Part shown: positions 27,001-41,936 of the stretch, piece by piece
How the letters are laid out: the number at the start of each line of letters is the position of its first letter
Position numbering within the stretch: position 1 is the first letter of the stretch
NCBI GenBank assembly: GCA_937967615.1
Contig: CALCMJ010000036.1
Coordinates: 1 to 60,442 of the forward strand
From: an uncultured Saprospiraceae bacterium
GTDB lineage: Bacteria; Bacteroidota; Bacteroidia; Chitinophagales; Saprospiraceae
Direction of reading: 5' to 3'
Length of the DNA stretch: 60,442 nucleotides
Notes under the pieces: generated by a model
What the model saw: only the letters and a program-made list of their open reading frames with translations
What the model was told of the DNA's origin: nothing
Databases searched by the model: none
Program-made: the position numbers and the translations under genes

Positions 27001-27105
27001 GACATGCAACTGAACGCGTATGAACTTATAAAATCAAAAGAACTTAAAATTCTAAATGACTTAATACGAAATGAAATAAAGGATTTCATTAAGGTTAAAA
27101 AATAA
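24019..27105 (+). CDS. Secreted BNR-repeat/VPS10-sortilin-like beta-propeller protein (1)
   Basis: A 1028-aa protein with a signal peptide (MKNKLLFTLLIMCSGVISNAQ). The first about 720 residues contain at least ten Asp-box (SxDxGxTW) repeats, for example TNDGGRSWENL, SEDAGKTWVSK, SIDGGDTWRKV, STDEGQSWEII and SSDDGRSWQSL, which build one or two beta propellers as in sortilin, sialidases and xyloglucanases. The last 300 residues hold an Ig/FlgD-like segment (MREANAKSFDGMIMWW, VPGEYSVHL) and a helical coil. No T9SS domain is seen, so it is probably periplasmic or surface bound by other means. Often annotated as glycosyl hydrolase; no catalytic residues identify an activity. A paralogue follows 38 bases later. 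Confidence 0.85.
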   Translation: MKNKLLFTLLIMCSGVISNAQSNRSNKEDVTKVEWRELGPYRGGRSCAVTGVDSKPNLFYFGATGGGVWKTNDGGRSWENLSDGFFGGSVGSIEVAKSDLNVIYVGGGEKTVRGNVSYGYGVWKSEDAGKTWVSKGLKKSRHISRMRVHPTNPDIVYAAVMGNLFADDNERGVYKSIDGGDTWRKVLFANASSGAVDLSFDPTNPRILYASTWTIRRNPYSLSSGGEGSALWKSTDSGESWKNISANEGLPKGTWGISGVTISPANPERVWALIENKDGGLFRSDNAGKTWKKVNSDRSLRQRAWYYTRLYADTQDQDIVYVVNVSYHKSKDGGKTFSSFRAPHGDHHDLWISPSDPKRMIIGDDGGAQVTYDSGETWTTYHNQPTAQFYRVTTDNHFPYRIYAAQQDNSTIRIAHRTDGSSIGESDWERSAGGESAHIAVDPLNNDIVYGGSYGGFLTRVDHSTNQVRAINVWPDNPMGYGAEGMKYRFQWNFPIFFSQHDAKKLYVASNHLHMSTDEGQSWEIISPDLTRNDSTKLKSSGGPITQDNTGVEYYCTIFAAGESPVEEGVIWVGSDDGLIHLTRDGGKNWNDVTPKGIPKWLMINCIEPNPHKAGSCYIAGTLYKSGDFSPYIYKTDNYGVSWTKITTGIDKEHFTRAVRVDPLKEGTLYAGTETGMYFSSDDGRSWQSLQRNLPIVPITDLAIKNDNLIAATQGRGLWIIDELKTIREEAQMGALQKDYLFQPNDSYRMQGRQNKNVKGEGMNHPGGVNTHFFLRSYDEKKDTVHLHYLSANGDTLRSFSNHAKEKQDKLKLEQGANLFNWNMREANAKSFDGMIMWWGSMAGPKVVPGEYSVHLNTNGNNQSQTFKVIKDPRVEFSDRDLQQQHTFIRAVNAKVTTAHETIIEMRDLKKQMAEFKEMHDSEAIVSKISELDSTLTVIEKELYQTKNKSRQDPLNFPIRLTNKLAHLNSLAQISDSPPTQSMLKVFDEIGAKIDMQLNAYELIKSKELKILNDLIRNEIKDFIKVKK

Positions 27106-27143
27106 TATGACTTGTATAAAATAACTTCTTAGAAATATATCAT

Positions 27144-30100
27144 ATGAAAAACACACTTAGCTACATTACTTTCTTTTTGATTTGTACTGGCACATTCCTT
27201 CAAGCGCAGACTTCAAATTTTAATGCTGAGAATTTAAAGGGACTGGAATTTAGAAGCATAGGACCAGCATTTATGTCAGGTAGAATCGCGGATATCGCAA
27301 TTGATCCAAATGACGAAAGTGTGTGGTACGTTGCCGTTGGCTCAGGGAATGTTTGGAAGACTGTAAACGCTGGAGTTACGTGGAAACCAATATTTGAAGA
27401 CCAATCAGTATACTCTACTGGATGTATTACCATTGACCCTAACAATTCAAGTACTATCTGGCTAGGTACTGGAGAAAATGTAGGTGGCCGCCATGTCAGC
27501 TGGGGGGATGGTATTTATAAAAGTACAGATAGTGGAGAGACTTGGGACAACATGGGACTCAAACAATCGCAGCACATCGCGGAAATACTTATCCATCCAG
27601 AAAATTCAAATATCATATGGGTAGCTTCACAAGGACCATTGTGGTCTAGCGGTGGAGAACGAGGTGTCTACAAATCAATTGATGGTGGAGCAACATGGAA
27701 GCAAACATTAGGAGATGCTGTCTGGACCGGTGCAACTGAAATTATAATGGACCCAAGAAACCCAGATGTTTTGTATTGTGCTACCTGGGACAGACATAGA
27801 ACCGTAGCTGCCTATATGGGTGGTGGACCAGGTTCTGGAATACATAAAAGTACAGATGGTGGCGAAACATGGACTAAGCTTAGTAAGGGACTTCCTGAAT
27901 CCAATCTTGGGAAGACAGGACTTTGTCTTTCCCCCCAAAAGCCAGACGTTATATATGCAGCAGTAGAACTCGACCTTAGGAAAGGAGGCTTATTTAAAAG
28001 TATGGATGGAGGAATGACTTGGGCAAAGCAATCTGATGCAATTACAGGAGGCACAGGCCCACATTATTATCAAGAATTGTATGCATGCCCACATAATTAT
28101 GATCGTTTGTATTTGATGGATAATAATGCACAGATATCAGATGATGGAGGCAAGACGTTTAGGAGAATGAATGAAAAGAATAAGCATGGAGACAACCATT
28201 CCATAAATTTTAAAATGAGTGATCCAGACTATCTTCTTTTAGGAAGTGATGGAGGAATTTATGAGACCTTTGACCTTTGCAAAAATTGGAGGTACATAGA
28301 AAACCTGCCAATTACTCAATTTTACGATATAGCAATAGATGATGCAGAACCTTTTTACAATGTATATGGAGGTACGCAGGACAATAGTACAGAAGGTGGA
28401 CCCTCACGCACAGATAACATTCAGGGTATTCAAAATTCAGACTGGAAGGTTGTACTAAATTGGGATGGACATCAACCTGCAACAGAGCCGGGAAACCCAA
28501 ACATTGTTTACGCACAAAGACAACAAGGCACCCTTTCCAGACTAGATATGGCAACAGGTGAAGCTATGGACATCCAGCCCCAAGCTGGTGCGGACGACCC
28601 TCACGAACGATTTAACTGGGACGCCCCTATTTTAGTAAGCCCTCATGATCCCAAACAACTCTTTTTTGGCTCACAACGATTATGGAGATCAAATAATAGA
28701 GGTGACAGTTGGACAGCAATTTCAACAGACCTAAGTAGAAATGAAAATAGATTTACGCTCCCAATAATGGGAAGACAACAGAGTATAAACAATCCATGGG
28801 ATGTGTATGCAATGTCTAATTACAATACGATAAGCATGGTGGACGAATCACCGGTGCAACGTGACCTCATTTATGTGGGTACAGATGATGGACTTATTCA
28901 AATTACGGAAGATGGAGGCGCCACATGGAACAAGACAGAAGCATCCCGCCTAAGCGGAGTACCTCAGAGAGCCTACATCAATGATATAAAAGCAGATTTA
29001 TTTGATGCCAATGTTGCATATATGGCAATGGATAATCATAAAGAAGGAGACTTTCGTCCATTTCTATTTAAAACTTCTGATAAAGGAAAATCTTGGAAGT
29101 CCATTACGGCTAATCTTCCAAAGAATAATATAATATGGCGAATTGTTCAAGATCATGTGGACAAAAATCTAATTTTCATAGGTACTGAATTTGGAATTTA
29201 TGCGACTAGAGATGGTGGAGGATCTTGGACACAATTAAAAGGTGGCTTACCAACCATCTCTTTCCGAGATTTAAAAATACATAGAAGAGAGAATGATTTA
29301 GTTGCTGCTTCCTTTGGAAGGAGCATATATATACTAGATGATTTCAGCTCTCTACGGAATATGAACGATCAAGTTCTTAATAAGGAAGCAAGCCTCTTCC
29401 CTGTTCGTGATGCATGGTGGTATATTGAGCGCTCACACTTGGGCTTTAACAAGGGAGCAGGTTCGCAAGGCTCACAACATTACATTGCGGAAAATCCTCC
29501 TTTTGGAGCATTGCTTAGCTATTACATTAAAGATGATATTAAATCTCAGAAAGATCAAAGAGCAGAAGCAGAGAAGAAATTGGAAAAGCAAAATATTCCA
29601 TTTCCAGGGTGGGAGAATTTAGACAAGGAGGCAAACGCTATCGGAACAGAAATTCTATTGGTGATTCGGAATAATCAAAACGAGGTTATCAGACAAATTA
29701 AGGGAGAAACAAAAAAAGGAATCCACAGAACGTCTTGGGATTTAAGATATCCTGCAACTAGCTTAGTGAGTTCTGCAAAACCGAATGAAAATGCGAAAGG
29801 TTTTCTGGTTGCTCCTGGCAAGTATTCTGTTGAACTGATTAAAATTGCGAATGGAGAAACAACTGTGCTGTCTGAAAAGCAAGAGTTTAATGTCAAGCAA
29901 ATGAAAACGTCAACTCTCAAAGGAGCATCTATCCAAGAGGTAAGTAGTTTTTGGAAAAAATTTGATTCTACTGGTAAAGAGGCATCTGCCATTTTTGCAG
30001 AACTAGATCAATTAAAGCCTAAGCTAAAGATGCTGAGAACTGCGGTGGGCCAAACACCGTCTGACACTCAAGAATTGAATTCTGACATTAATGTTCTTTC

Positions 30101-30383
30101 TACAGATATATCCACTTTATTAGCAGATGTGCATGGAAGTCCAAGCAAACAAAAACCAGGAGAAAAAACACATCCATTAATTTCTGAACGGATGTTTTCG
30201 ATTGCTTTGGGTTTGAACAATTCCACGTATGGGCCTACAGAGACGAACAAAGCATCTATGAATATCGTACAAGACCAGTTGGGCGCAGCGTCAAGTAAAC
30301 TTAAAATGATCAAGAAAGAAATATCGCGAATAGCCACACGCATTGTAGAAATGGGTGGGCCATATATCAAAGGAGAATACTAA
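27144..30383 (+). CDS. Secreted BNR-repeat/VPS10-sortilin-like beta-propeller protein (2)
   Basis: A 1079-aa paralogue of the previous gene with the same order of parts: signal peptide (FFLICTGTFLQAQ), Asp-box repeats (TVNAGVTWKPI, STDSGETWDNM, SIDGGATWKQT, STDGGETWTKL, SMDGGMTWAKQ, TEDGGATWNKT, TRDGGGSWTQL), the end-of-propeller stretch AASFGRSIYILDDFSSL, a VAPGKYSVELI Ig-like segment and a C-terminal helical region. Start RxxGPAFMSGRIADIAI parallels RELGPYRGGRSCAVTGV in copy 1. The two genes are probably one transcript and arose by duplication; they may form a pair that handles a protein or glycan ligand. Function unknown. Confidence 0.85.
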   Translation: MKNTLSYITFFLICTGTFLQAQTSNFNAENLKGLEFRSIGPAFMSGRIADIAIDPNDESVWYVAVGSGNVWKTVNAGVTWKPIFEDQSVYSTGCITIDPNNSSTIWLGTGENVGGRHVSWGDGIYKSTDSGETWDNMGLKQSQHIAEILIHPENSNIIWVASQGPLWSSGGERGVYKSIDGGATWKQTLGDAVWTGATEIIMDPRNPDVLYCATWDRHRTVAAYMGGGPGSGIHKSTDGGETWTKLSKGLPESNLGKTGLCLSPQKPDVIYAAVELDLRKGGLFKSMDGGMTWAKQSDAITGGTGPHYYQELYACPHNYDRLYLMDNNAQISDDGGKTFRRMNEKNKHGDNHSINFKMSDPDYLLLGSDGGIYETFDLCKNWRYIENLPITQFYDIAIDDAEPFYNVYGGTQDNSTEGGPSRTDNIQGIQNSDWKVVLNWDGHQPATEPGNPNIVYAQRQQGTLSRLDMATGEAMDIQPQAGADDPHERFNWDAPILVSPHDPKQLFFGSQRLWRSNNRGDSWTAISTDLSRNENRFTLPIMGRQQSINNPWDVYAMSNYNTISMVDESPVQRDLIYVGTDDGLIQITEDGGATWNKTEASRLSGVPQRAYINDIKADLFDANVAYMAMDNHKEGDFRPFLFKTSDKGKSWKSITANLPKNNIIWRIVQDHVDKNLIFIGTEFGIYATRDGGGSWTQLKGGLPTISFRDLKIHRRENDLVAASFGRSIYILDDFSSLRNMNDQVLNKEASLFPVRDAWWYIERSHLGFNKGAGSQGSQHYIAENPPFGALLSYYIKDDIKSQKDQRAEAEKKLEKQNIPFPGWENLDKEANAIGTEILLVIRNNQNEVIRQIKGETKKGIHRTSWDLRYPATSLVSSAKPNENAKGFLVAPGKYSVELIKIANGETTVLSEKQEFNVKQMKTSTLKGASIQEVSSFWKKFDSTGKEASAIFAELDQLKPKLKMLRTAVGQTPSDTQELNSDINVLSTDISTLLADVHGSPSKQKPGEKTHPLISERMFSIALGLNNSTYGPTETNKASMNIVQDQLGAASSKLKMIKKEISRIATRIVEMGGPYIKGEY

Positions 30384-30405: not shown

Positions 30406-30885
30406 CTACTTAAAGGTCGCGTCAATAATAAATTTCACTGGGGTCTGAATATCAATTTTCAGATCCCAGCTGTTATCACTGTTTCTTGAACCTTGTATGC
30501 TCCCCGACTCGGCAAAAAGATTTCCTCCAACAACACAAAAACAAGACTGAAGAAGAACGCACTGTGCATAAGAGAGATCAGAAGTATTTAAAACAAAGTT
30601 GTCAATATTTGAATCTACTTCAAACATTAAAATTCTAGTGACTTCATCATCAGAAATTGCCGGGTCGTCTTCACTTATATATTTATAACAAAAAACAGTT
30701 TTATTTCCATCAATTGCTTTGAAGGTATTAATAGACAGTATACCCTCATCATTCGTATAAGAGTCTACTTCAATCTGTGCATTATTTATTACTTCATATT
30801 TATAATCACCAGGTGGACCTGACTCAGGAGTTCTATTGCATGAAATACAAACGCAAATTATGCTAACAAATAAAGAATATTTCAT
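30406..30885 (-). CDS. Small lipoprotein, last gene of ECF module 1
   Basis: A 159-aa lipoprotein with a short SPII signal (MKYSLFVSIICVCISC, lipobox around Cys16). The mature part is strand-rich with three further Cys (residues about 108-117, VLLQSCFCVVGG). No family recognised. It lies 26 bases downstream of the barrel/anti-sigma gene on the same strand, so it is probably the end of that operon. Its 3' end is convergent with BNR gene 2 with 22 bases between and no terminator. Confidence 0.6.
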   Translation of the reverse strand: MKYSLFVSIICVCISCNRTPESGPPGDYKYEVINNAQIEVDSYTNDEGILSINTFKAIDGNKTVFCYKYISEDDPAISDDEVTRILMFEVDSNIDNFVLNTSDLSYAQCVLLQSCFCVVGGNLFAESGSIQGSRNSDNSWDLKIDIQTPVKFIIDATFK

Positions 30886-30911
30886 GCTTTAGTATTTTGT
30901 TTAAGCTGGTA

Positions 30912-32360
30912 TTAAAAATTATAACTAAGTCCTAAATTCAAGGCCAAATAATTAAACTTGCTTTCAGATATTTCACTTCTACGTATGTCACTTAAGTATT
31001 TCCCAGCCTTAACTCCCGCATACAAATTGAAATCATTGAATATTCTTCTGTGTACTCCTAATTCTCCATGTAGTGAGTAGAGAAGGGCTCTTTGCTTAAA
31101 TGGTTCTTCTTCTGTATATTCAGTAATACTAGAACGGCTAATGAAATATTTCCCATTTGCACTTATTATCATATTTAAACCAGCACCAATAGATGGTATA
31201 ATTTGCCAATCGCCTCTTCTTATATTGTAGCCAAAATTAAAAGGGATTTGAAATACGTTCAAACTATTGTAATGTGTAATTTCTCTCAGTTCTACTGCAC
31301 TGAATGACTGTGTATCATATGCTGCATTAATTGCTCCACTTGGGATATTCACGATAATGCTAGGCAAGGTATCTGTTGCATCTGAACGTCTTTCATACTT
31401 CCCATTCAATTTTGACTTAAAGGAATTGTAATTAAAACCTGTCCCAAGTATAAGTCCATTAGAAAATGTGTGTGAAAAATTAATACCAAAGTTATACCCT
31501 GCGATTTGCTGCACTGAAGCGGAATCTCCTAAAGTTTCAACTCTCAAAAAAGAGCTAACATCAGCTGTATTTTCCTCCAAATTTTTAGTTAAATAACTGT
31601 CTGTTTGATTTAGAAAACCAGACTCTATAGTAAGCAAATTACTATGCTTGTTTCTTACAGGAGCAATAGACTTTTGTGGAATAGATATCTCTGCAAATAT
31701 AGCCTCCTTCTCAAAGAGATTCGTTTTTTCTTTTACACCTATTAATCCCAATAAGTGAACAGGGATCAATTGAATTAAACGATCAAATTTAGAGTTTGAA
31801 TTTTCAGCAAATTCAGAAGAAGTATTTTGAGTCTGTGAACTCAATCTAGCATCCCTAACCTGGGTACTTGTCACATTCTCTTGATTTGCATCCACATTGT
31901 TCTCAAATGATACAACTGCTATCTGAGCTTGGTTTAAAACGTTTCCAGTTCCATTCTCAGTTCTTGGAGTAAATGTATTTTTGCTTTCGTATACTTTCTG
32001 CTTTATTGATTTAATACCTGATTTCTTTTTCTCAACATTAGTTTTATCTGTTGTTATAGTGGGCACTGATTCAATCTGTGCAGTCTCAATTTCCGTATTA
32101 CTTGCTAGCTCCACATTTTTAATGCTTTTCTCTGGACTAGAATCCACCATTGGCATTAGTTCCTCCACAGACATCATCATATATGCTGATATTCCAACAG
32201 CCATTAATAGCGCTCCAAGTGCAAACCATAGCCAGATAGGTTTCTTATTCCTTTCTGGAGGATCAAGCAATTTTTCCAGCTCGTTCCATGTAGCGGGCAC
32301 ATCTACTGGAGTCTCGTAGCCTTCTAATAATTGTTTTATAAAATCTTCTCTTTTTCCCAT
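30912..32360 (-). CDS. Putative dual membrane-spanning anti-sigma factor, module 1 (cytoplasmic head, TM, linker, OM barrel)
   Basis: A 482-aa protein. Residues 1-40 are a short charged cytoplasmic head (FIKQLLEGYETPVDVPATWNELEKLL) whose Trp25 and spacing recur in module 2. Residues 41-63 are one inner-membrane helix. About 64-250 is a polar Ser/Asn/Thr/Gln-rich linker of low complexity. About 260-482 is a strand-rich region with aromatic girdle patterns ending in LGLSYNF, with a terminal Phe as in outer-membrane barrels. The gene starts one base after the ECF sigma gene. The architecture and position fit the Dma-type anti-sigma factors described in Bacteroides thetaiotaomicron. That it binds the neighbouring sigma factor is inferred. 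Confidence 0.65.
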   Translation of the reverse strand: MGKREDFIKQLLEGYETPVDVPATWNELEKLLDPPERNKKPIWLWFALGALLMAVGISAYMMMSVEELMPMVDSSPEKSIKNVELASNTEIETAQIESVPTITTDKTNVEKKKSGIKSIKQKVYESKNTFTPRTENGTGNVLNQAQIAVVSFENNVDANQENVTSTQVRDARLSSQTQNTSSEFAENSNSKFDRLIQLIPVHLLGLIGVKEKTNLFEKEAIFAEISIPQKSIAPVRNKHSNLLTIESGFLNQTDSYLTKNLEENTADVSSFLRVETLGDSASVQQIAGYNFGINFSHTFSNGLILGTGFNYNSFKSKLNGKYERRSDATDTLPSIIVNIPSGAINAAYDTQSFSAVELREITHYNSLNVFQIPFNFGYNIRRGDWQIIPSIGAGLNMIISANGKYFISRSSITEYTEEEPFKQRALLYSLHGELGVHRRIFNDFNLYAGVKAGKYLSDIRRSEISESKFNYLALNLGLSYNF

Positions 32361-32361
32361 G

Positions 32362-32904
32362 TTACATTCTTGATTGAATTTCTTTTACATCCACATTTTT
32401 CTTAAGCCAGTTTTTGGCTTTGAAGAGTTGCGAACGGGAAGTGATTTCTGAAATATTTAAAGTCTTAGCAATTTCTTTATGTGAGTAACCGTCCATGACG
32501 GACATGTTAAAAACAGTTTTATAACCAGTGGGCATACCTTTCATAAATCTGAGAACACCTTCTGCATCCATATTGTAAAATTTATCTGTATCCATAGGAT
32601 CTCTATCCATTTCGTCCAAGGATGAAAATGAATTATTGAATGCTTCTTTCTTTGTAATTTTCAGGGAACAGTTAATGAATATTCTTGCCATCCATTGTTT
32701 TAGACTTCCCTTTTCCATATCAAACTGCTCAATATTATTTAGCACTCTCAAAAATCCATCTTGCATGGCCTCCTGTGCTTTTTCTGTGTCATAAACGTAT
32801 CGCCTACAGATTGTAGATGCCCAACCCGCATATTGTGCATACAAGAGGTGTTGACACTTCCTGTCTTTCTTCATGCAACCGTGTATGATCTTAAGTTGAT
32901 TCAT
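32362..32904 (-). CDS. ECF RNA polymerase sigma factor, module 1
   Basis: A 180-aa sigma-70 family ECF factor. Region 2 is residues about 10-80 (YAQYAGWASTICRRYVYDTEKAQEAMQDGFLRVL and the MARIFINCSL end), region 4 about 115-170 with the helix-turn-helix GYSHKEIAKTLNISEITSRSQLFKAK. It recruits RNA polymerase to a small envelope-controlled regulon. It lies between a lipoprotein gene (6 bases upstream) and the putative anti-sigma barrel gene (1 base downstream). Close in sequence to the sigma factor of module 2 (shared II-GC-K-DRK start and YSHKEIA block). Confidence 0.9.
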   Translation of the reverse strand: MNQLKIIHGCMKKDRKCQHLLYAQYAGWASTICRRYVYDTEKAQEAMQDGFLRVLNNIEQFDMEKGSLKQWMARIFINCSLKITKKEAFNNSFSSLDEMDRDPMDTDKFYNMDAEGVLRFMKGMPTGYKTVFNMSVMDGYSHKEIAKTLNISEITSRSQLFKAKNWLKKNVDVKEIQSRM

Positions 32905-32910
32905 TTAAAA

Positions 32911-33939
32911 TTAGTTACAAGGCGCAATTCTAGTATTAAATGTTCCTTCAATAACATTGAAGTCCGCTCCAGAACTATCCTGGAAAGTAAAATGTCCAAT
33001 TATCCTATCAGTCTCTACCAAATCAATTTCTAAAACTATAGGATAGCCGTTTTGCACAATAAACCCGGAGTTATAATTTGCTACCAATTCACTATCAACC
33101 CTTATCAATGCTGCCTCAATTTTATCTTGTGATTTGGGAAGTTCATCTTGTGTAAAATATATCAGATACTCTCCAGAAACGGCAAGTGCAAATGGTCCTG
33201 AAGTGTGATCAGTCAGTCCATGTCCAAAGTGAATAAAAGCTGAAAGCATATAATCTGCTGACTCGTCGTTCTCACAAAATTGCATTAAACTAGAGTATTT
33301 TTGTATTTCACCATCCTTCTTAAACTCGGCTCGTCCTTTTGACCAGTTTACCATATCACCATTGGGTAATACTAAAATTGAAGGCACTATATCGTCAAGT
33401 TCACAAGGCACCTCAGAGACATTAAAGCTGCCTATACGTTGATCTTCTTGTTGTCCTAATGCACTGTAAGTAGGATCAGGATAAAAACTTCCTGAATACA
33501 TAATATTTGGATCAGTAGTAGACCCAGCACTTTCTGTTAAATCAAGTTCTAAAACATAATGAGACTCATTAAACTGCCCATCTACACCTGCTGTGCTCCC
33601 GTATGCTTTGAATACCCCAGCAGTAAGAGGAGCATAGTCTATCCAATAGATTTGATTTACCAAACCTACAGGTTTAATTAATCCATTTTCAAAATTAAAG
33701 TCTTCAGCAAAGATGAATGAGTTAATGAAAAAATCTTCTTCTTCGCAAGACGTCAAATAGGCAAAATAATTTTTCTCTTCTGTAGTTATTGTACTTATAC
33801 TAACCGTACCTGTAAGATCATAAAACTCAGGCTCTGTAGTGATATCATTTTCTGTTGATACGAGACCGTCCATATTTTCTCTTTGACAAGAGGTAAAGAG
33901 CACAGTTGCAAAGATTGTAAGGAGAGCAATTTTATTCAT
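32911..33939 (-). CDS. Lipoprotein, first gene of ECF module 1
   Basis: I take the ATG at 33939 (342 aa) because it begins a clean SPII signal, MNKIALLTIFATVLFTSC; an ATG at 33954 adds five codons. The mature part is beta-rich with paired Cys residues (EVPCELDD, LMQFCEND, RIAPCN) and a C-terminal IEGTFNTRIAPC. No family recognised. The gene is 6 bases upstream of the sigma factor and likely heads the operon. The similar position of a lipoprotein in module 2 suggests that it is sensed by, or is a target of, the sigma system. Confidence 0.65.
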   Translation of the reverse strand: MNKIALLTIFATVLFTSCQRENMDGLVSTENDITTEPEFYDLTGTVSISTITTEEKNYFAYLTSCEEEDFFINSFIFAEDFNFENGLIKPVGLVNQIYWIDYAPLTAGVFKAYGSTAGVDGQFNESHYVLELDLTESAGSTTDPNIMYSGSFYPDPTYSALGQQEDQRIGSFNVSEVPCELDDIVPSILVLPNGDMVNWSKGRAEFKKDGEIQKYSSLMQFCENDESADYMLSAFIHFGHGLTDHTSGPFALAVSGEYLIYFTQDELPKSQDKIEAALIRVDSELVANYNSGFIVQNGYPIVLEIDLVETDRIIGHFTFQDSSGADFNVIEGTFNTRIAPCN

Positions 33940-34038
33940 CTTTAAATAATTCATATCAATGTATTCTGCTTCATTAAGGTGTTCATAACTGTATATTCTT
34001 AAAATAATGCATTTGATGCCTGAACTATCGAAAATTAT

Positions 34039-34058
34039 CAGATTTTACTGCTAATCTG
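34039..34058. repeat. Inverted repeat between module 1 and patatin gene
   Basis: CAGATT-TTACTGCT-AATCTG in the 200-base divergent gap; possible operator site. Six paired bases only. Confidence 0.3.
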
Positions 34059-34146
34059 GGCCGAATTACACAGGAATTCTCAAATTCATCAATTTTATCA
34101 GCTTTTTTTAAGCATTTGTGCCTATAAAACGTTCTTTGAGTACTAT

Positions 34147-34953
34147 ATGTCAATACGTACGAAATATATATTTACTGGAGGAGGCACCCGCGGGATGTAT
34201 CAAATAGGTGTTGCTGAAGCCCTCAGAAAGGCTGGATTCAGAGATAGCTTAGTCTCAGTGTCATCATGCTCAATAGGTGCATTGAATGCTTGTTTGCTCA
34301 TGCAATACGATCCCCTAGAGGCCAGAGAGATCTGGTTAGAATTTACTAAGAAAGAACTCTTTAAAAATGTAAGACAGAACGGGAGGAGTTATTCATTTAC
34401 TCTGTTTAAGGAAGTGATTACGGGTGGGATTGATGTAAGTCCATTACAAAAGATTCTTAACGAATACATAGACGAGGAAATCATAAGATCCCAAAACATA
34501 GAACTTATCATCGCCATCTATAATATTACCGATCAGAAATTAGAATACCCTTCTCTAGATCAGATACCGCATGGGCAGTTAGTAGAATACATCCTTGCAA
34601 GTGCGAGACTCCCCTTTTTTAAAGACAGGATTATTAATAAAAAGAAATATTTAGACGGTGGTTTTGCTGACAATGAACCTGAGTTTACCCATTTAGAAAA
34701 CAAGGTCTTTGACTACACATTCATTGCTCGTATTGCATACGTAAAAAAGTATCTTCCTAAGCAACGCATTAAAAACATTGTAAGCAAGAAAAAGGTCGTC
34801 ATTGCTTCTAAAAGACTTCTTGGCACTCCATTGGCTTTTGATAATCCAAGTTTTGAACAGAAATATGATTATGGATATGAGGATGCATCTAGGATTATTG
34901 AGGAGTATGGTTTGGGACTGATGGGAAGAGAGACTGAAAGCTTGAACGACTGA
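34147..34953 (+). CDS. Patatin-like phospholipase
   Basis: A 268-aa patatin-fold lipid acyl hydrolase. The oxyanion loop GGGTRG is at 11-16, the nucleophile elbow is SCSIG with Ser42 (the first Gly of GxSxG is Ser), and the catalytic Asp is in YLDGGFADNEP. No signal peptide, so cytoplasmic or exported by another route. It sits alone between the two divergent sigma modules. Its last residues (GRETESLND) are encoded by sequence that resembles the 16-base repeat that follows, so the C-terminus may have been extended by it. Confidence 0.85.
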   Translation: MSIRTKYIFTGGGTRGMYQIGVAEALRKAGFRDSLVSVSSCSIGALNACLLMQYDPLEAREIWLEFTKKELFKNVRQNGRSYSFTLFKEVITGGIDVSPLQKILNEYIDEEIIRSQNIELIIAIYNITDQKLEYPSLDQIPHGQLVEYILASARLPFFKDRIINKKKYLDGGFADNEPEFTHLENKVFDYTFIARIAYVKKYLPKQRIKNIVSKKKVVIASKRLLGTPLAFDNPSFEQKYDYGYEDASRIIEEYGLGLMGRETESLND

Positions 34954-34979
34954 GTGACGGAGAGACTGAGTGACGGAGG
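34948..34979 (+). repeat. Tandem 16-bp direct repeat
   Basis: Two adjacent copies of GACTGAGTGACGGAG(A/G), the first covering the patatin stop codon. A degenerate copy (GAGACTGAAAG) lies just upstream inside the gene. Confidence 0.75.
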
Positions 34980-35353
34980 GTCGACCCCTAAAAACGGTTG
35001 TCGGTTTTTTAGCCACAGCGTGGCTAAATATTTATAACCATAAGGATAAATCTACAATTCGCTCCCTAGGAGCGACACCATCGATACATATTATTGCAAC
35101 ACACTAATTTATAAACGACGGAAAAGAGTTGCATAAGCAACATGGAAGGTTTAGTATCTCAGGTGTCTGAGACACCTGAGATACCGAGTGAACAACGAGC
35201 CTGTAATACTGCGCCCCTGAGCGAGTGAAACGAGTCGAAGGGATATGCCCAAATTATTATCCCTATTTTAGTAATAGAGAAAATAATAAACTCTCATCTT
35301 TGACTTTAATACAAACTTAATTAAGCATTGATTATCAATAACTTACGATTAAA
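34980..35353. repeat. Cluster of palindromic (REP-like) elements in a gene-free region
   Basis: Four elements follow each other. TTAGCCAC-AGC-GTGGCTAA at 35009-35027; CGCTCC-CTA-GGAGCG at 35060-35074, followed by ACACCATCGATA; a perfect 14-bp palindrome GTATCTCAGGTGTC-TGA-GACACCTGAGATAC at 35154-35184; and a CCCTGAGCGAGTGAAACGAGTCGAAGGG block at 35214-35241. Three have 3-base loops. These resemble repeats scattered in many Bacteroidota genomes, probably REP/MITE-type elements. No transposase remains in the window. Confidence 0.7.
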
Positions 35354-35458
35354 ATGTATAAAACTGATTCCATCAGAATTCTGCTAAGACAAAATAAATT
35401 TATTCCGTTTGCAACGTATGCAACTAAATCTGTCATTTATAGGAAACGGACGCTAACA

Positions 35459-37147
35459 ATGTGTTTAAAAAATATCTCTTTCATTCTAATTTGTATTCTT
35501 TTTGTTGCTTGTCATCAAGATTTTGAGACTGAGCCAAAAGTGGAACAAAATACTGAGGATCCACAGGTCATTATTACAACTGAAATTACTGGTCAAGTAC
35601 TTGATGCTTCTGGAAATGTTCAGGATGACTATATAATGGACATAGGGCTAAACCAAGTAGTTCAGAATAAACGCTATTTTCTAGAAGCGGTGGAAGCTGT
35701 GAATAAGAAAGGCCAATACATAGAGCTTACCCAAGCTGACGCATTTAAAGGATTTGCACTACCCTTGTTAATTGAAAACGATGTGAATGTTTTAAATCTG
35801 CGTTTTTTCCCAGAGTTAGAATCTATGCGTGTTGATTTAAATCAGAATCAAAAAATAACTCCAAATGTGAATATTCTTATCTCTAGTTTAAAAAATGGTG
35901 CAGGTGAGAAACATACGAGTGCTTTCAATTTAGGGATAAGAGATTTGAGTGATGAAAATTATGATTGGCAACTTGGGAGTTTTGGATATGACAAACTCAA
36001 TTCTCTTGTTTCTCTTAAACCTATTCAAAGGTTTTATTTTGAACTTAAGGATGATAATGACAATAGTTTGGAAATTGACCCTGATAGTCCTAGTCGATTG
36101 ACTTACGGAGGAGTGACAATGCATTCCATAGGACTATTCCTCTTAGACAACGATTCTAAGAAATGGAAACTCATAACAGATATAAACAATTCAATTGCTC
36201 AGATCATAGATGATGGATATTATATGCTTGCAGAATATGAGGCAGGAATATTTACTGAAGGGCATTTACTTCTGGATGGAGAAGCAATATCCTACCAAAA
36301 ATTTAGATGGCAAAATCCAATGACGGAAACAGAAGGTTTTACTAGTGTGTCCGGAAAGTTTCTTTCAGTTGTGCCTTCTAATTCTGCGTTGATATACAAC
36401 GTCATAGATCCGTGCAATACATCATTACGTACAATTGATTACGACTCGCCTGATCAGAATGCAGATGATATCTTGTTCCACATAGAGAATACAGATGGAG
36501 AGTTTTTTAACCTAGATGCATCCATACTTAGCTGTGATGAAGAATTGAATAATCAACCAGCGGTGAACATGTTCTTGGACAATGGAAACTACATTTATGC
36601 TTTCAATGGCACTGACATCAACACGTGGTTAAGTGTGTGCAGTAATGAATTTGAAATTGCAGGTTACAATATTGAAGAAGATAGTTCTGGGCCAACTATA
36701 AGCTGGAGTACGCAAACGGAGGAAGCTATAGAATATTTAAGTGGTTGCGAATCGCATTTAGATGGTTTTAGTTTTCTAAAAATAAGACAGGATAAAAAGC
36801 TCTACCCTTCTTTTGAATTTAGTCGGGTTGGGAATACAACAATTCTTGAAGCAGATGGTGGTGAAATGAAACTAATAATCCAGGGTGCTGAAATAGGACA
36901 ATATAATGTAGAACAACTGAACATAAGGATAAATGACGACAACTTTGGTGATGATGGTTATGCTGTAAATTGTGAAAACTCCTCAGAGGGTTGTGGAATC
37001 AATGAAGCGTACATAAGTCATTATGAAGAAATGGATAGTGGCTGGATACGAATGACCTTTTCTGGTGAGGTATGGATGCAAACAATAACGCCAGCAGCTG
37101 CGGGAAATTTTCCAATAGAAGGAACAATCCTTTGTAAAGCAAATTGA
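35459..37147 (+). CDS. Lipoprotein, first gene of ECF module 2
   Basis: The frame opens at 35354, but the ATG at 35459 begins a proper SPII signal (MCLKNISFILICILFVAC), so I take that start (562 aa). The mature part begins with a DFETEPKVEQ linker and an ITGQVLDASGNV strand pair like a regulatory-domain repeat, followed by long beta-rich regions with scattered Cys pairs and a C-terminal FPIEGTILCKAN resembling the end of the module 1 lipoprotein. No known family. The sigma factor gene begins 8 bases downstream. Confidence 0.65.
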   Translation: MCLKNISFILICILFVACHQDFETEPKVEQNTEDPQVIITTEITGQVLDASGNVQDDYIMDIGLNQVVQNKRYFLEAVEAVNKKGQYIELTQADAFKGFALPLLIENDVNVLNLRFFPELESMRVDLNQNQKITPNVNILISSLKNGAGEKHTSAFNLGIRDLSDENYDWQLGSFGYDKLNSLVSLKPIQRFYFELKDDNDNSLEIDPDSPSRLTYGGVTMHSIGLFLLDNDSKKWKLITDINNSIAQIIDDGYYMLAEYEAGIFTEGHLLLDGEAISYQKFRWQNPMTETEGFTSVSGKFLSVVPSNSALIYNVIDPCNTSLRTIDYDSPDQNADDILFHIENTDGEFFNLDASILSCDEELNNQPAVNMFLDNGNYIYAFNGTDINTWLSVCSNEFEIAGYNIEEDSSGPTISWSTQTEEAIEYLSGCESHLDGFSFLKIRQDKKLYPSFEFSRVGNTTILEADGGEMKLIIQGAEIGQYNVEQLNIRINDDNFGDDGYAVNCENSSEGCGINEAYISHYEEMDSGWIRMTFSGEVWMQTITPAAAGNFPIEGTILCKAN

Positions 37148-37155
37148 AAGAGTAG

Positions 37156-37740
37156 GTGTTAGAAAACGACATAATACAGGGCTGTAAAAAACAAGATAGA
37201 AAAGCACAAAAGGCTTTTGTAGATGAGTACTCCAGATATCTATTTGGGGTATGTAGAAGATACATTAATATAGAAACGCAGGCTAAAGATTGCTTGCAAG
37301 AATCTTTGCTCCATATTTTGACGAACATTAAGACATATGAAGAGCAAGGAAAATTCAAAGCTTGGATAGCACGCATTACTGTATATAAATGCTTGCAATC
37401 AATAAGAAAAGAGAAAAAACACATTTCTTTTTTAATAGACGAGCTACACGAACCAGTAAGTGATACAAGTGCGAGTTACATTTTAGAAACTCAAGATGTC
37501 ATGCGATTTTTAAATGATCTAGCTCCCAATTACAGAATCGCATTAAACATGTATTTGATAGAAGGTTATAGTCATAAAGAAATTGCAGAGCAACTGAACA
37601 TTAAAGAAGGTTCGTCAAGGGCATTAGTATCCAGAGGACGAAAAATGATTGCCCAGAAATTTGAAGAAGACAGATTACGAGTAGTACATACTCAAAAAAA
37701 AGATCTCGTTAATAGTAAACTAAGTTTGGGTTTTAAATAA
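37156..37740 (+). CDS. ECF RNA polymerase sigma factor, module 2
   Basis: A 194-aa ECF sigma factor starting at a GTG codon. Region 2 includes EYSRYLFGVCRRYINIETQAKDCLQESLLHIL and FKAWIARITV; region 4 includes GYSHKEIAEQLNIKEGSSRALVSRGRKMI. The body is close to the module 1 sigma factor (IIQGCKKQDRK against IIHGCMKKDRK), with a C-terminal tail of about 25 extra basic residues. It lies 8 bases after the lipoprotein gene and 20 bases before the membrane-spanning partner. Confidence 0.9.
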   Translation: MLENDIIQGCKKQDRKAQKAFVDEYSRYLFGVCRRYINIETQAKDCLQESLLHILTNIKTYEEQGKFKAWIARITVYKCLQSIRKEKKHISFLIDELHEPVSDTSASYILETQDVMRFLNDLAPNYRIALNMYLIEGYSHKEIAEQLNIKEGSSRALVSRGRKMIAQKFEEDRLRVVHTQKKDLVNSKLSLGFK

Positions 37741-37760
37741 TCCACATTCAATTTAAGCGT

Positions 37761-39254
37761 ATGTCAAAAGATTTAAACAAGAAAGAGCAACATTTTAAGG
37801 ATCTGCTAGACAATCTAGAGATGGACTTAAACACGGATGAGCTATGGTCTTCTGTATCTGCTGAACTTCCGCAGAAAAGGAAAAGATATGGTCTGCTTTC
37901 ATTCAGTTTACTCTTTGTGGCTATGCTACTTACCGGTTTCTTTGTAGGAAAGTATTATGGAACGGGATTAAGCAGTCAAGGACTTGAAGCTGAATCTGAA
38001 AAAGGGATTGAATCAGAATTTAATGAAATTGTGGAATTAACAGAATTTGTAAATGATCCAAAAGGAGATAACAATAGAGAAAGTGAGACTGAGAAAAATA
38101 GTGAAAGGGGAATAAATGCGGAAGCCAATAAACCTGAACGTGAAAAAGAATTAGAAAAAGGAACTGAAACAGAATTAGAGGAATTTGTGGAATTTGCTGA
38201 ATTTCTAAAGGAAGTAGAGGCTGAAGAAATAAGAGTTTCAAATGAAACTGGAGAGTTGAAGAAACTCAATGAGGAAGCAGAACTTGTTTTAAATGATGTA
38301 AAAAGAAATAGCACTAACAACAGGTCCGATATTACTAGCCAAACGAAGATCATTTTTGATTCTAAAAAACAAGTATCATTATCGGCTAAGCCCTTCAATA
38401 AGAAGAAGAGAAAAACGCATACTTTCTTGAACATTGATTATCTCACTACGGTGCAGCTGGGGCAAGCATTAATAAGCAAGAGTTTAGTTTTTGATAATGC
38501 ACGTATTTCAACCAGCATAGTACCTATTTACCAGGACAACTGGAAACCATTTTTAAGATTCCAGTTAGGACTCAATCATAACAACAGCCGTAATATACTT
38601 GCAGAAAATTCAGAAGGATTAGATGCTCAAATACTTGGATTAGAAAATGACAAGATGGGCTTTAATTCTGAGATAGGTGTAGGATTATTCCACGCGTCCG
38701 GATGGCGTATATCTGGAGGACTGAGTTATTCAAGTTTTTTCAGTTCAATGAGCTCAAATGAAGTGGAAATTACATCGCAAGAAGTAGCAGGTACAGAAAC
38801 TATAATTATTAATCCAGATGGGAGTCAGACATTGATTGCAGGAACACTGCAACAAACAAGTAGTTCTGAAACAAGTTTTTTATGGCACCGAAGACATAAG
38901 CGACTAGATGTACAAATAGGATTAGGGAAATCTCTTATGCATTGGAAGCATTTATCAATTGGAATTGAGGCAGGTCTTAGGTACAATGTATGGGCTTCTG
39001 ATCGAGGATATTTTTTCGATAATAATTTAGAATTCACAAAACTGACTGAAGGCGTTGAAAGTCCATATAAAAATAGACATGGATTAGGATTTAGCTCCGC
39101 AGTAAATATAGAATATGCAATGGGGAGATATATAGTAGGTATAAATCCTTTTCTAAGATATAATCCAAATTCGATAAGTAAAGCTTCACATATATATTTA
39201 AACAAAAATCATCAAGTAGGATTGAATGCTAGCCTCTTCTATTTATTTGATTGA
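37761..39254 (+). CDS. Putative dual membrane-spanning anti-sigma factor, module 2
   Basis: A 497-aa protein with the same plan as in module 1. Residues 1-42 are a cytoplasmic head (HFKDLLDNLEMDLNTDELWSSVSAEL, Trp29), 43-63 an inner-membrane helix (LLSFSLLFVAMLLTGFFVG), about 64-220 a strongly acidic linker, and about 225-497 a strand-rich barrel-like region ending VGLNASLFYLFD. The linker holds a duplicated unit of about 20 residues (80-99 and 132-151, both EKGxExE...VE..EF). It follows the ECF sigma gene by 20 bases. Role as anti-sigma is inferred from architecture and context. Confidence 0.65.
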   Translation: MSKDLNKKEQHFKDLLDNLEMDLNTDELWSSVSAELPQKRKRYGLLSFSLLFVAMLLTGFFVGKYYGTGLSSQGLEAESEKGIESEFNEIVELTEFVNDPKGDNNRESETEKNSERGINAEANKPEREKELEKGTETELEEFVEFAEFLKEVEAEEIRVSNETGELKKLNEEAELVLNDVKRNSTNNRSDITSQTKIIFDSKKQVSLSAKPFNKKKRKTHTFLNIDYLTTVQLGQALISKSLVFDNARISTSIVPIYQDNWKPFLRFQLGLNHNNSRNILAENSEGLDAQILGLENDKMGFNSEIGVGLFHASGWRISGGLSYSSFFSSMSSNEVEITSQEVAGTETIIINPDGSQTLIAGTLQQTSSSETSFLWHRRHKRLDVQIGLGKSLMHWKHLSIGIEAGLRYNVWASDRGYFFDNNLEFTKLTEGVESPYKNRHGLGFSSAVNIEYAMGRYIVGINPFLRYNPNSISKASHIYLNKNHQVGLNASLFYLFD

Positions 39255-39317
39255 TCAATTATCTAACTAATTTAATTGCCCGGATATTTTCGGATAAAAG
39301 TATTTTAAAATTAAGAC

Positions 39318-41861
39318 ATGAAAAATATTTACAAAAATTTAGCACTTATTTTCTTTGTGTTTTTTGCACACATACAAATGCAAGCGCAAGTAAACTGTAA
39401 TGACATGGTCAACATCAGTTTGTCAATTTGGGATGGCACAGCGGACCTCAATGCTGAGATGTTTGTTGAAGGCGACGCCAGTCAATACGACGAGTTATCT
39501 ATAGATGTTGAGCAGGTAGATTGTGATGACATAGATACGCCTGTCACTGTAACTGTGACAGCAGTTCTTGATGGTGTTACAAGCACCTGTACAAGTTTAG
39601 CTGTTGTAGAAGATAAGGCGCCTCCTGTTCCTGTTGTTACACAAAATCTTATTGTGATGCTTGACGTGAATGGCGAAGCAAGTATTACAGGAGAAACCAT
39701 TGACGCAGGTTCGTGGGATAATTGCGGTAGCATTACATTGTCTGTGAGTCCCTCAGAATTTACATGTGCAGATCTATGGCAGAATCCTGTAGTAACACTT
39801 ACCGTGGAAGATGCCTCAGGCAATACGAATACCGCATGGGCTAATGTAGTAATACAACAGGACAATGGTGCAATTACATGCAACTCAGAAATAACTGTAA
39901 ATACGGATGATGCTCCAATTCTATTAGGAGTGGATGACATGCTTTCCGGACAGGCGACTGAGGGCTGTAGTGAAAATTTACAATTGACAATAACAGACGC
40001 TTCTGGAGCAGTTGTGCCTAATAATTTAGTAACATCTGCATATGCAGGAACAACTTTAATAGCTACTATTGAAAATACTGTAGGTAATTCATGTTGGGGT
40101 CAGGTTATTGTGGAAGGTGATGCAAGCTGCGGTGATTTTACTGAAGACAATATTCTTTGGCCAAGCAACATCAGTATTTCTATTCTTGGTGTAGATTCTG
40201 ACAGTTTGAGTCCTGCAAATCTAATTGCATACTTTGGTGTAGATCCAGCTGATGCCATGCCTACCATTAATGACCTAGGCTGTATAATAGCAGTATCTTA
40301 TCATGATAATATTTTTATTATTGATAATTTTTCTTTCAAGGTAGTGCGTACATGGACAATTATAAATTGGAATGACGGCTCTACGTATTCTGGAACTCAG
40401 ATTATAGATAACTTCCCAAACACAGATTTTATCTGTGATGTTTTACCTAGAACAGCGCCAGTAGGCGATTGTGATTCTGGTCATACTTTAGATGATGACG
40501 CAGAGTGGCCAGCGGATTTAAATATAGCAGACTATAGAATTAAGCCAGAGGAATTAATTATGTATTCAGGAGTAGATCCATTAGATTCAGCGCCATCGTT
40601 TTACAATACGCCAGATCAATATTCAGCAACGTATGTAGACTACTTAGAAGAGCTTACAGCTGATCAATTAACTATAGGAAGAGAATGGACTGCTACCCGA
40701 GATGATGCGCCTGGAGCTTACTGGATATATCTTCAAACAATAGTTGTTGACTTAACAGCATTCAGCAATCTAGTTACAGTAGAAACAATGACAAGTAGAC
40801 CTGTTCCTGACGTTTCTATTACACCAGATATAGCTACAGATGATGCTGGTAATGCCACAGTAGAGCCAACAGACATGATTAATCCTTTCCTAGCAGATGA
40901 TCCTCAGAATGGTTTAGACATTGTAGATATGTATATTATTCGTGAACATGTTCTTGGAATAAACTACATGGATGACTTACAAACTATTACTGCAGATGTG
41001 AATGAATCAACAGCAGTTACTACCCTAGATCTAGTTTTGATAGAGCGTGTTATTCTTGGCTTAGAAACAGAAATTAGTTCACTTTGGTGGTTTGTAGATA
41101 AACCTGTTGAAAACAACCTCTCCCCTAAAGCACAATATATTGCACTCAAGCCTGGAGATGTAGATGACTCTGCGGTTTTAGGAGCAAACTTTGCTGGAGA
41201 AAATGACATTAATTACGTTGACAGACTTGTGAATACAGGAGAAACGTATGAGATTCCATTTTACGTAACAGAAGAGATGACAAGCAATGGAATGCAGTTT
41301 AGTTTTAATATTGATAACTCTGCGTTGGAGGTAGAGTCTGTAGAAAGCAATTACTTTACAGATGCAGTGACTTTCAGTCAAACGGAGAGTGGAGAATTTA
41401 ATGTTGTTATGCTAAATAAACTAGCATCTGAAGCGAAAGAGATCGCTGCGGGCGATGCTGTATTCACAGTAACAATGAAAGCAAAAGCAAATTCTGTCTT
41501 AAGCTGGTCACTGAGTTTAAATGAAAACCGCTCATCATTTACAATAAATGAAAATGGAGAGCGAATCACATTTAATGAGCAAGTGGATGGAGAAATCATC
41601 TCTGGACTCAAGGATTTGGAAGCATTGGAAGGTGTGTCTATCTACCCTAACCCAGCAATAGATATCATAAACTTAGATGCTCCAAGTGCCATTCTTTCAG
41701 AAGGCTATGTGATGACAATCGTAAACAATGCAGGACAGATTGTTTCAATAACAAAAAATGAAAAAGAGCTAGATGTCACACATTTACCTTCTGGCATGTA
41801 CTTTTACTTTTTATTGCAAAATGACAAGTTAGCCAAAGGAAAATTTGTGATTTTAAAATAA
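39318..41861 (+). CDS. T9SS surface protein with HYR-like, dockerin-like and cohesin-like segments
   Basis: An 847-aa protein. Signal peptide ends HIQMQAQ. Residues about 25-260 are Cys-containing HYR/Ig-like repeats (VEDKAPPVPVVTQN, DNCGSITLSVSP, EDASGNTNTAW). About 521-594 is a dockerin-like pair of Asp-rich loops (NGLDIVDMYIIREHVLG, ADVNESTAVTTLDLVLIERVILG). About 624-757 resembles a cohesin-type beta sandwich (EIPFYVTEEMTSNGMQFSFNI). The end is a T9SS type A sorting domain (VSIYPNPAIDIINL to GKFVILK). Located 64 bases after the module 2 anti-sigma gene, it may be its output or an independent gene. A terminator follows. Confidence 0.8.
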   Translation: MKNIYKNLALIFFVFFAHIQMQAQVNCNDMVNISLSIWDGTADLNAEMFVEGDASQYDELSIDVEQVDCDDIDTPVTVTVTAVLDGVTSTCTSLAVVEDKAPPVPVVTQNLIVMLDVNGEASITGETIDAGSWDNCGSITLSVSPSEFTCADLWQNPVVTLTVEDASGNTNTAWANVVIQQDNGAITCNSEITVNTDDAPILLGVDDMLSGQATEGCSENLQLTITDASGAVVPNNLVTSAYAGTTLIATIENTVGNSCWGQVIVEGDASCGDFTEDNILWPSNISISILGVDSDSLSPANLIAYFGVDPADAMPTINDLGCIIAVSYHDNIFIIDNFSFKVVRTWTIINWNDGSTYSGTQIIDNFPNTDFICDVLPRTAPVGDCDSGHTLDDDAEWPADLNIADYRIKPEELIMYSGVDPLDSAPSFYNTPDQYSATYVDYLEELTADQLTIGREWTATRDDAPGAYWIYLQTIVVDLTAFSNLVTVETMTSRPVPDVSITPDIATDDAGNATVEPTDMINPFLADDPQNGLDIVDMYIIREHVLGINYMDDLQTITADVNESTAVTTLDLVLIERVILGLETEISSLWWFVDKPVENNLSPKAQYIALKPGDVDDSAVLGANFAGENDINYVDRLVNTGETYEIPFYVTEEMTSNGMQFSFNIDNSALEVESVESNYFTDAVTFSQTESGEFNVVMLNKLASEAKEIAAGDAVFTVTMKAKANSVLSWSLSLNENRSSFTINENGERITFNEQVDGEIISGLKDLEALEGVSIYPNPAIDIINLDAPSAILSEGYVMTIVNNAGQIVSITKNEKELDVTHLPSGMYFYFLLQNDKLAKGKFVILK

Positions 41862-41905: not shown

Positions 41906-41936
41906 AGTGGGACCCCTGTAGGTCCCACTTTCTTTT
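41906..41936 (+). terminator. Rho-independent terminator after module 2
   Basis: A perfect 9-bp stem AGTGGGACC / GGTCCCACT with a 6-base loop is followed by TTCTTTT. It isolates module 2 from the helicase gene. Confidence 0.85.

Follow-up and report, generated by a model that had tools for sequence, protein, structure and literature searches.

Two putative Dma-type sigma/anti-sigma modules headed by lipoprotein genes in an uncultured Saprospiraceae bacterium

We analysed a stretch of 60,442 nucleotides (hereafter the window) from an uncultured Saprospiraceae bacterium (assembly GCA_937967615.1, contig CALCMJ010000036.1; genome G000 and contig C36 in our numbering, 3.79 Mb and 83% complete). 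We found two gene modules, A and B, which lie on opposite strands and share the same core: a lipoprotein, an extracytoplasmic function (ECF) sigma factor and a protein with an N-terminal head, one transmembrane (TM) helix, a long tether and a C-terminal beta-barrel. Both barrel proteins fit the Dma family of dual membrane-spanning anti-sigma factors and are called Dma A and Dma B here. We consider it likely that these are two independent Dma-type modules, each relaying an outer-membrane event to its ECF sigma factor through a single chain, with a lipoprotein as probable partner.

Dma proteins have been newly described in Bacteroides thetaiotaomicron. According to the sections of that report used here (PMC13088901), they consist of an N-terminal anti-sigma head, one TM helix, a long disordered region and a C-terminal beta-barrel, and they pair with Das proteins, which are ECF21-group sigma factors. 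Three Dma proteins are named in this species, and the signals that they sense are given as unknown.

Layout and domain plan of the two modules

Module A reads leftwards on the minus strand, from lipoprotein A (32911-33939, with the start at 33954 or 33939 and CQRENMD at the lipid cysteine) through sigma A (32362-32904, 180 aa, Pfam Sigma70_r2 and r4_2) and Dma A (30912-32360) to a small lipoprotein. Module B reads rightwards on the plus strand, from lipoprotein B (35459-37147, 562 aa) through sigma B (37156-37740, 194 aa, GTG start, recognised by Pfam) and Dma B (37761-39254) to a protein exported by the type IX secretion system (T9SS). Behind it a terminator-like hairpin (41906-41929, plus strand) would end the operon; the hairpin scan of the region returned 8 hairpins against 5.5 expected in shuffles. 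Intergenic gaps within the modules measure 1-63 bp by the coordinates of the open reading frames (ORFs). This is the order of lipoprotein, ECF sigma and head-TM-linker-barrel protein that an earlier, sequence-only reading had proposed for both modules, and the ORFs agree with it. The same reading placed the modules back to back: their opposite orientation holds, but they are not immediately adjacent, since a patatin-like gene (34147-34953) intervenes.

The domain plan is clearest in Dma B, which was modelled with AlphaFold from 15 sequences (mean predicted local distance difference test score, pLDDT, 64.6). The model has helices at residues 3-17 and 25-34 and a long helix from residue 45 that includes the TM stretch; the head corresponds to 37761-37886 and the TM helix to 37893-37958. 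Nearly all of residues 68-258 have a pLDDT below 50, in line with a disordered tether (~37959-38534). Strands follow at residues 261-495, mostly with high confidence (ten-residue blocks of pLDDT 79-97 from residue 291), and form an OmpA-like barrel (~38535-39251). This barrel superposes on E. coli OmpA with Z 17.4 and a root-mean-square deviation of 2.8 over 170 residues (VIA-align), and OmpA is also its top Foldseek match.

Dma A is predicted to carry the same plan of head (~32360-32244), TM helix (~32237-32169), tether (~32168-31641) and barrel (~31640-30915), with approximate limits. Its TM helix was called by hydropathy. Although blastp between Dma A and Dma B gives nothing below E 0.1, their local alignment scores 10 standard deviations (sd) above shuffles, and their barrel family profiles match with 100% probability (E 5e-40 over 233 columns). 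The single Dma A sequence matches the family B profile at E 4e-21, against E 0.3 for shuffled Dma A and E 0.5 for lipoprotein A as controls; a weak Pfam OMP_b-brl_2 match (E 2.5e-4) stays under the family cut-off. The heads match as well: residues 1-75, TM helix included, score 7 sd above shuffles, and head-only profiles of A and B meet at E 1e-8. Thereby the matching heads, the single TM helix and the C-terminal barrel that had been read from the sequence all find support, for Dma B in the AlphaFold model and for Dma A in hydropathy and profiles; the structure prediction proposed as a check confirms the barrel of B, and that of A is supported by profile comparison.

A profile of 14 Bacteroidales Dma-like proteins matches the window's Dma proteins in the barrel (E 1e-25) and in the head (E 3e-10); it was built from the Dma-like proteins of our named survey (80 loci, 75 with the sigma gene found and 27 of these with a full-length Dma-type protein) and not from Dma1-3 themselves. 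Together with the domain plan, this bears out the proposed Dma-type architecture beside an ECF sigma factor. No FecR or TonB-dependent receptor Pfam domain was found in nine window proteins or in the 15 members of alignment A6.

The two sigma factors share 35% identity across 162 aa (E 3e-37 by pairwise BLAST), their alignment score lies 51 sd above shuffles, and the YSHKEIA and GC-x-K-x-DRK blocks noticed earlier are present in both. Their TIGR02985 matches fall below the cut-off; in both modules the ECF sigma gene adjoins the Dma gene. The shared gene order of two neighbouring modules, retained in the congener G001 (the one same-genus genome searched), could suggest a recent tandem duplication that left two redundant copies, and sigma A is indeed the best in-genome match of sigma B. 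We nonetheless find this origin scarcely credible. In a multiple alignment, with the congener copy (74%) set aside, sigma B shares 51-52% identity with sigma factors from other genera but 31% with sigma A, and sigma A in turn has four in-genome matches slightly above sigma B (36-39%, 118-124 bits compared to 115). In a tree of 57 sigma factors, sigma B, its congener copy and two modules from other genomes make up a clade with full support, in which every member carries a T9SS tail gene; sigma A joins its congener copy and, with weak support (69/81), the L034 type. Forcing A and B to be sisters costs 35 log-likelihood units (approximately unbiased test, p 0.002, on a tree with long branches). 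Tree and test rule out tandem duplication of the modules, and the two lipoproteins are unrelated. On these sequence comparisons the modules are only distant paralogues: the paralogy proposed earlier stands in this wide sense, and local duplication does not.

Lipoprotein genes and promoter-like elements

The lipoproteins do not share the paralogy that had been extended to them. The alignment score of lipoproteins A and B lies below the shuffle mean and their profiles coincide in the signal peptide only, and a common origin was dropped. We compared 30 large proteins (two neighbours and the products of upstream genes of at least 300 aa): 22 form the lipoprotein B family, and lipoprotein A matches its congener copy only. 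Kinship of lipoprotein A with the L034 group was also rejected, as the profiles meet in the signal peptide only, despite a blastp E of 0.004.

The AlphaFold model of lipoprotein B (pLDDT 87.6, predicted template modelling score 0.81) is a chain of beta domains. VIA-align finds in it a carboxypeptidase-D-like domain (Z 9.6), a ZU5-like domain below the trusted level (Z 7.5), a second domain that is carboxypeptidase-D/teneurin-like (Z 9.8) and, at the C-terminus, a domain of which 111 residues resemble LpqH (Z 11.9). Pfam CarboxypepD_reg is recognised in 13/18 members of the family alignment A3 (for example L024:3424-5250 and L085:8345-10201), but not in the window's own lipoprotein B. The N-terminal domain of FAM171 (PF10577), a domain of animal proteins, appears in 11/18 members of A3 (best E 3e-8) and is likewise not recognised in the window's copy.

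Surface lipoproteins of Bacteroidota carry a lipoprotein export signal (LES) of polar or basic and then acidic residues right after the lipid cysteine (PMC5080379, in the part used here). Lipoprotein B, with Cys18 followed by HQDFE, has the LES-type sequence and is thus a predicted surface lipoprotein. A lipid cysteine was called in 59 of 60 homologues, and 50 of these 59 have export-signal-like residues behind it (within the next four positions, one of K/R/H/Q/N/E followed by D/E), a few of the cysteine calls looking misplaced.

Lipoprotein B was searched in 60 genomes: its own, that of the congener, 35 from the same family and 23 from the same order. For the 60 strongest matches we examined the DNA as well; strong hits in G029, G043 and G008 and weaker partial ones lie outside this set. 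Of these 60, 46 (in 22 genomes) have an ECF sigma gene immediately behind them on the same strand; two more are tandem copies before such a gene (48 in total) and one lies at a contig end. In all 42 lipoprotein B modules whose next gene falls in the retrieved stretch, a full-length protein of 427-561 aa stands behind the sigma gene. In L092 a lipoprotein B-type gene is followed, with no sigma gene between, by a protein whose barrel matches Dma B.

Starting from the other end, eighteen relative Dma loci were found by similarity to Dma A or B, leaving out the two congener orthologues, and in 15 of them the sigma gene is preceded by a gene for a large lipoprotein; this count includes L084, whose lipoprotein is missed by the lipobox rule yet belongs to the lipoprotein B family. 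In the named survey, by comparison, an upstream gene passes the lipobox rule at 7 of the 27 Dma loci (L102, L105, L120, L127, L148, L159 and L178), and five of these genes are small (139-248 aa). Three loci of that survey, L099, L102 and L105, were checked for family, and their genes all belong to the lipoprotein B family.

A promoter-like element precedes many lipoprotein-first operons. The words GCAGCGTT, TGCAGCGT and TGCAACGT stand upstream of 12, 11 and 8 of 54 such operons and of none of 292 control genes. The motif TGCARCGW precedes 27/54 operons compared to 4/292 other genes of the same loci (Fisher p 4e-21, a test that treats loci of related genomes as independent, which they are not), and the longer TGCARCGWW 27/54 compared to 3/292; on the reverse strand TGCARCGW precedes 0/54. 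Roughly 16 bases downstream comes an A/T-rich element. The TGCAAC form stands before none of the 12 lipoprotein genes that lack a sigma gene, a count that did not include the TGCAGC form. Module B carries the motif, in a putative ECF-type promoter at 35410-35439 (plus strand) that fits TGCARCGWW-N(14-17)-WTWWA. Because this conserved element lies between the two, we place the start of lipoprotein B at 35459 and not at the first ATG (35354). Module A has a different conserved block in front of lipoprotein A, GTTCAGGCATCAAA-N4-TTATTTTAAGAATATA (33992-34025, minus strand), a putative promoter or operator that occurs once in the window and is kept in the congener inside a poorly alignable spacer. 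A scan for Sigma-70 promoters returned 44 where 43 were expected and so showed no excess.

In the named survey TGCARCGW stands before the sigma gene in 7/27 Dma loci and 3/41 loci with a short anti-sigma gene, with 2/74 on the reverse strand; in the seven Dma cases CATC follows 13-14 bases after TGCARCGTT, as judged by eye. The short anti-sigma loci have TGCAACC upstream of the sigma gene in 21/41 cases and in 0/41 on the reverse strand, the word having been chosen from the same data. TGCAACC and the TGCARCG of Dma-type operons differ by one base in the putative -35 element.

Conservation, copies and tail genes

Both modules are kept in G001 in mirror-image synteny. Since they are retained there with conserved sigma factors (93% identity for A and 74% for B) and heads (72 and 62%), both look like working copies, as had been proposed. 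The sensor genes behave differently: Dma B (37%), Dma A (38%), lipoprotein A (40%) and lipoprotein B (52%) are the four least conserved among 26 syntenic orthologues. The chance of this bottom set is 1 in 14,950, computed after seeing it. The patatin-like protein (76-77%) and the T9SS protein (59%) lie above them. Within Dma A and Dma B, the tethers are 22 and 16% identical and the barrels 44 and 48%. Three other module pairs of the same genome give 37-50% for Dma, 65-79% for sigma and 63-68% for the lipoprotein. Synonymous sites are saturated, and we therefore make no claim on the ratio of nonsynonymous to synonymous rates.

The genome may hold about 11 candidate Dma modules. It has 37 Sigma70_r2 matches, 13 of which reach at least 77 bits to sigma A or B. 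Eleven of these 13 are followed by a protein of 420-497 aa with one TM helix within its first 115 residues, and two (L018 and L026) by a short protein. Barrel profiles support 8 of the 11, Dma B itself included; they do not show the barrel for L010 (head match only), L017 and L029 (E 0.001-0.005).

In the Bacteroidales loci, the genes behind nine Dma-like proteins encode a NigD-like lipoprotein (five), a lytic transglycosylase (three; SLT genes behind L103, L109 and L137) or a serpin (one, behind L140, in a metagenome-assembled genome of Porphyromonas cangingivalis). The five NigD-like cases agree with NigD1 being the reported output, or target, of Dma1 in the part of the Dma report at hand (PMC13088901). 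Among 42 survey loci with a short one-TM anti-sigma protein, 28 (L106, L107, L118, L131, L133, L134 and L147 among them) are followed by a gene for a stand-alone secreted protein; these proteins make up one family, and their C-terminal part is barrel-like. Two of three Dma barrel profiles match these proteins at E 2e-7 and 5e-8, and the Dma B family profile at 7e-4 with 25% probability. The pair may be a split form of Dma; general barrel similarity would be an alternative. At L124, L130, L138, L155, L158 and L162 the short anti-sigma gene is followed by a conserved protein of 141-144 aa that looks thioesterase-like by eye.

The tails of the two modules differ, as had been noted. The T9SS protein of module B (39318-41861, plus strand, 847 aa) ends in a type A sorting domain (Por_Secre_tail, 41640-41852, E 2e-11, above the cut-off), and has a dockerin-like stretch clearly below its cut-off (~40917-41054, 16.2 bits against 22.9) and a cohesin-like one just below (~41232-41597, 23.3 bits against 24.1). 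This tail is not an output idiosyncratic to the window, because homologues stand behind Dma in eight other modules. A third gene on the same strand lies within 300 bp behind Dma in 16 of 42 complete modules, and nine of them, the window's T9SS protein included, belong to a single family. In ten tail proteins scanned (one of them, L084, outside this family) the sorting domain is above the cut-off in nine and below it in one; cohesin passes in G001, L082 and L088, and dockerin in L081 and L245. The T9SS label is spread over several sigma clades and needs at least four changes on the sigma tree, which excludes a single clade and indicates that the tail was gained, lost or moved more than once. 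The small tail lipoprotein of module A (30406-30885, minus strand, 159 aa, from the ORF list) finds no counterpart in the congener stretch compared (34 kb), where a 413 aa lipoprotein occupies its place.

The patatin-like phospholipase between the modules (34147-34953, plus strand, Pfam Patatin E 8e-24) is probably a bystander and keeps its position in the congener; a terminator-like hairpin lies behind it. By eye, its protein has SCSIG in place of the usual GxSxG. The spacer between this gene and operon B contains a perfect palindrome with 11-bp arms, TCTCAGGTGTC-TGA-GACACCTGAGA (35157-35181), which is a single copy in the genome and is absent from the congener's shorter spacer. Beside module A, positions 24019-30383 encode a tandem pair of large secreted proteins (1028 and 1079 aa, BNR-like by eye) that are 84 and 81% conserved in the congener.

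A possible receptor and its alternatives

Based on these data, we propose the following mechanism. The C-terminal barrel would sit in the outer membrane, the disordered tether of ~170-190 residues would span the periplasm, and the single TM helix would cross the inner membrane, so that the short head could bind the neighbouring ECF sigma factor and keep it off RNA polymerase. The surface lipoprotein, encoded by the first gene of the operon, would probably be a ligand-binding or gating partner of the barrel. A signal, either a ligand or the loss of outer-membrane integrity, would be sensed by lipoprotein or barrel, and the change passed along the tether would release the sigma factor. The freed sigma would then transcribe its own operon, for module B from the TGCARCG-type promoter and for module A possibly from the different block found in its place. 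Operon B would also yield the large T9SS-exported protein; that this is the output or a surface antenna of the module appears somewhat doubtful.

Head-sigma binding, the outer-membrane barrel and release by a signal would follow by analogy with the Dma work. In the part of that work drawn on here, das2 is induced in a dma2 mutant (PMC13088901), as autoregulation predicts. That the lipoprotein is a co-receptor of the barrel has, in our judgement, about even chances. More tentatively, and at a little under even chances, we suggest a three-part receptor free of TonB, in which the trans-envelope anti-sigma factor is a single chain and its OmpA-like barrel is gated by a multi-domain surface lipoprotein dedicated to it. 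Saprospiraceae would hold a large repertoire of such receptors, with barrel and lipoprotein changing fast, sigma and head fixed, and some lineages coupled to a T9SS partner as ligand or antenna.

Several observations weigh against the proposed mechanism. The head of Dma B is modelled with only moderate confidence (pLDDT 55-67). Lipoprotein A lies outside the lipoprotein B family, 11/60 lipoprotein B homologues have no adjoining sigma gene, and no such lipoprotein is found at 3/18 relative Dma loci or at about half of the Dma modules of the genome itself. In the named survey, 20/27 Dma loci have no upstream gene that passes the lipobox rule, although one of them (L099) has a truncated member of the lipoprotein B family; with only 7/27 positive, the lipoprotein was dropped as a phylum-wide Dma feature. 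The TGCARCG motif is absent from module A and occurs in 1/10 sigma-first operons. The bipartite promoter pattern has no genome-wide excess (10 matches compared to 11 for the reversed pattern), and therefore no sigma regulon beyond the own operon is claimed. Co-divergence of lipoprotein and barrel is weak, with a partial rank correlation of 0.24 given sigma (permutation p 0.0015) and 0.20 within genomes, and the sigma-barrel correlation given the lipoprotein is stronger (0.46); distance correlation is thus not decisive for co-evolution.

The Dma/ECF pairs could be real and the lipoprotein and T9SS protein merely target genes of the sigma factor, that is, surface outputs without a sensing role, which we regard as quite possible though not probable. 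The motif precedes the lipoprotein gene, so that active sigma would lead to production of the lipoprotein, and this lipoprotein is missing from many Dma modules. In the Dma report, as far as its consulted part goes, NigD1 is likewise an output of Dma1, and the dma2 mutant shows strong induction of bt_1555-1557, neighbours of dma2 that are dispensable for its outer-membrane vesicle (OMV) phenotype (PMC13088901). Against this, the position of 46/60 homologues directly before a sigma gene and the L092 pair without one suggest a link to Dma and not a free target, and third genes behind Dma are less regular (16/42 within 300 bp, 9 of one family).

Alternatively, the barrel could respond to outer-membrane assembly or integrity with no ligand at all, and its fast divergence could reflect escape from phages, predators or antibodies, or lack of constraint. 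The low rank of the four sensor genes among the 26 orthologues would fit, fast evolution is usual for outer-membrane and disordered proteins, and the reported Dma1 and Dma2 phenotypes concern OMVs (PMC13088901, consulted part). Nonetheless we think this rather unlikely, as the lipoproteins of three other modules of the genome diverge less fast (63-68%), a pattern more in keeping with change in particular modules than with general escape. It is more improbable still that the C-terminal domain lies outside the outer membrane or is cut off, leaving head and TM helix as an ordinary inner-membrane anti-sigma factor. The 28/42 short anti-sigma loci with a separate barrel-like protein do indicate that head and TM helix can exist without a fused barrel, and the proteins at L018 and L026 are short too; but all 42 lipoprotein B modules with the next gene in the retrieved stretch have the full-length protein, and the poorly conserved tethers (16-22%) offer little to mark a cleavage site. 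The relay by two independent Dma-type modules remains our preferred reading.

Parts of this design have precedents. In the FecA-FecR-FecI system a surface event is relayed to an ECF sigma factor across both membranes by a TonB-dependent receptor and FecR; the same task would fall here to one chain with an 8-stranded OmpA-like barrel. RcsF and outer-membrane barrels of enterobacteria combine a lipoprotein and a barrel as an envelope sensor, whereas here barrel and anti-sigma factor are one chain. In Porphyromonas gingivalis PorA, a surface protein with a T9SS sorting domain, influences the ECF sigma factor SigP through PorXY (PMC7712824, in the part consulted), a distant precedent for the tail of module B, with a two-component relay there and a candidate direct trans-envelope anti-sigma factor here. 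The closest likeness is to Dma/Das, another Bacteroidota system, with its head, single TM helix, disordered tether and barrel, its neighbouring ECF sigma gene and its further operon genes of unknown role. Compared to B. thetaiotaomicron, the operons described here start with a multi-domain surface-type lipoprotein, module B has a T9SS-exported fourth gene, and the 83%-complete genome has ~11 candidate modules against three named Dma proteins. The literature searched contained no description of a lipoprotein partner of Dma or of such modules in Saprospiraceae, and the portions of PMC8103513 and PMC8999054 consulted have nothing on such a partner. The core is a known bacterial design, but the lipoprotein partner, the copy number and the fast-changing sensing parts look new.

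A dedicated surface lipoprotein in the operon would supply a candidate partner for the Dma barrel, and would make the Dma signal and its crossing of the envelope directly testable, with the promoter motif as a ready reporter. The possible split form in other Bacteroidota would offer a comparison for how the tether works.

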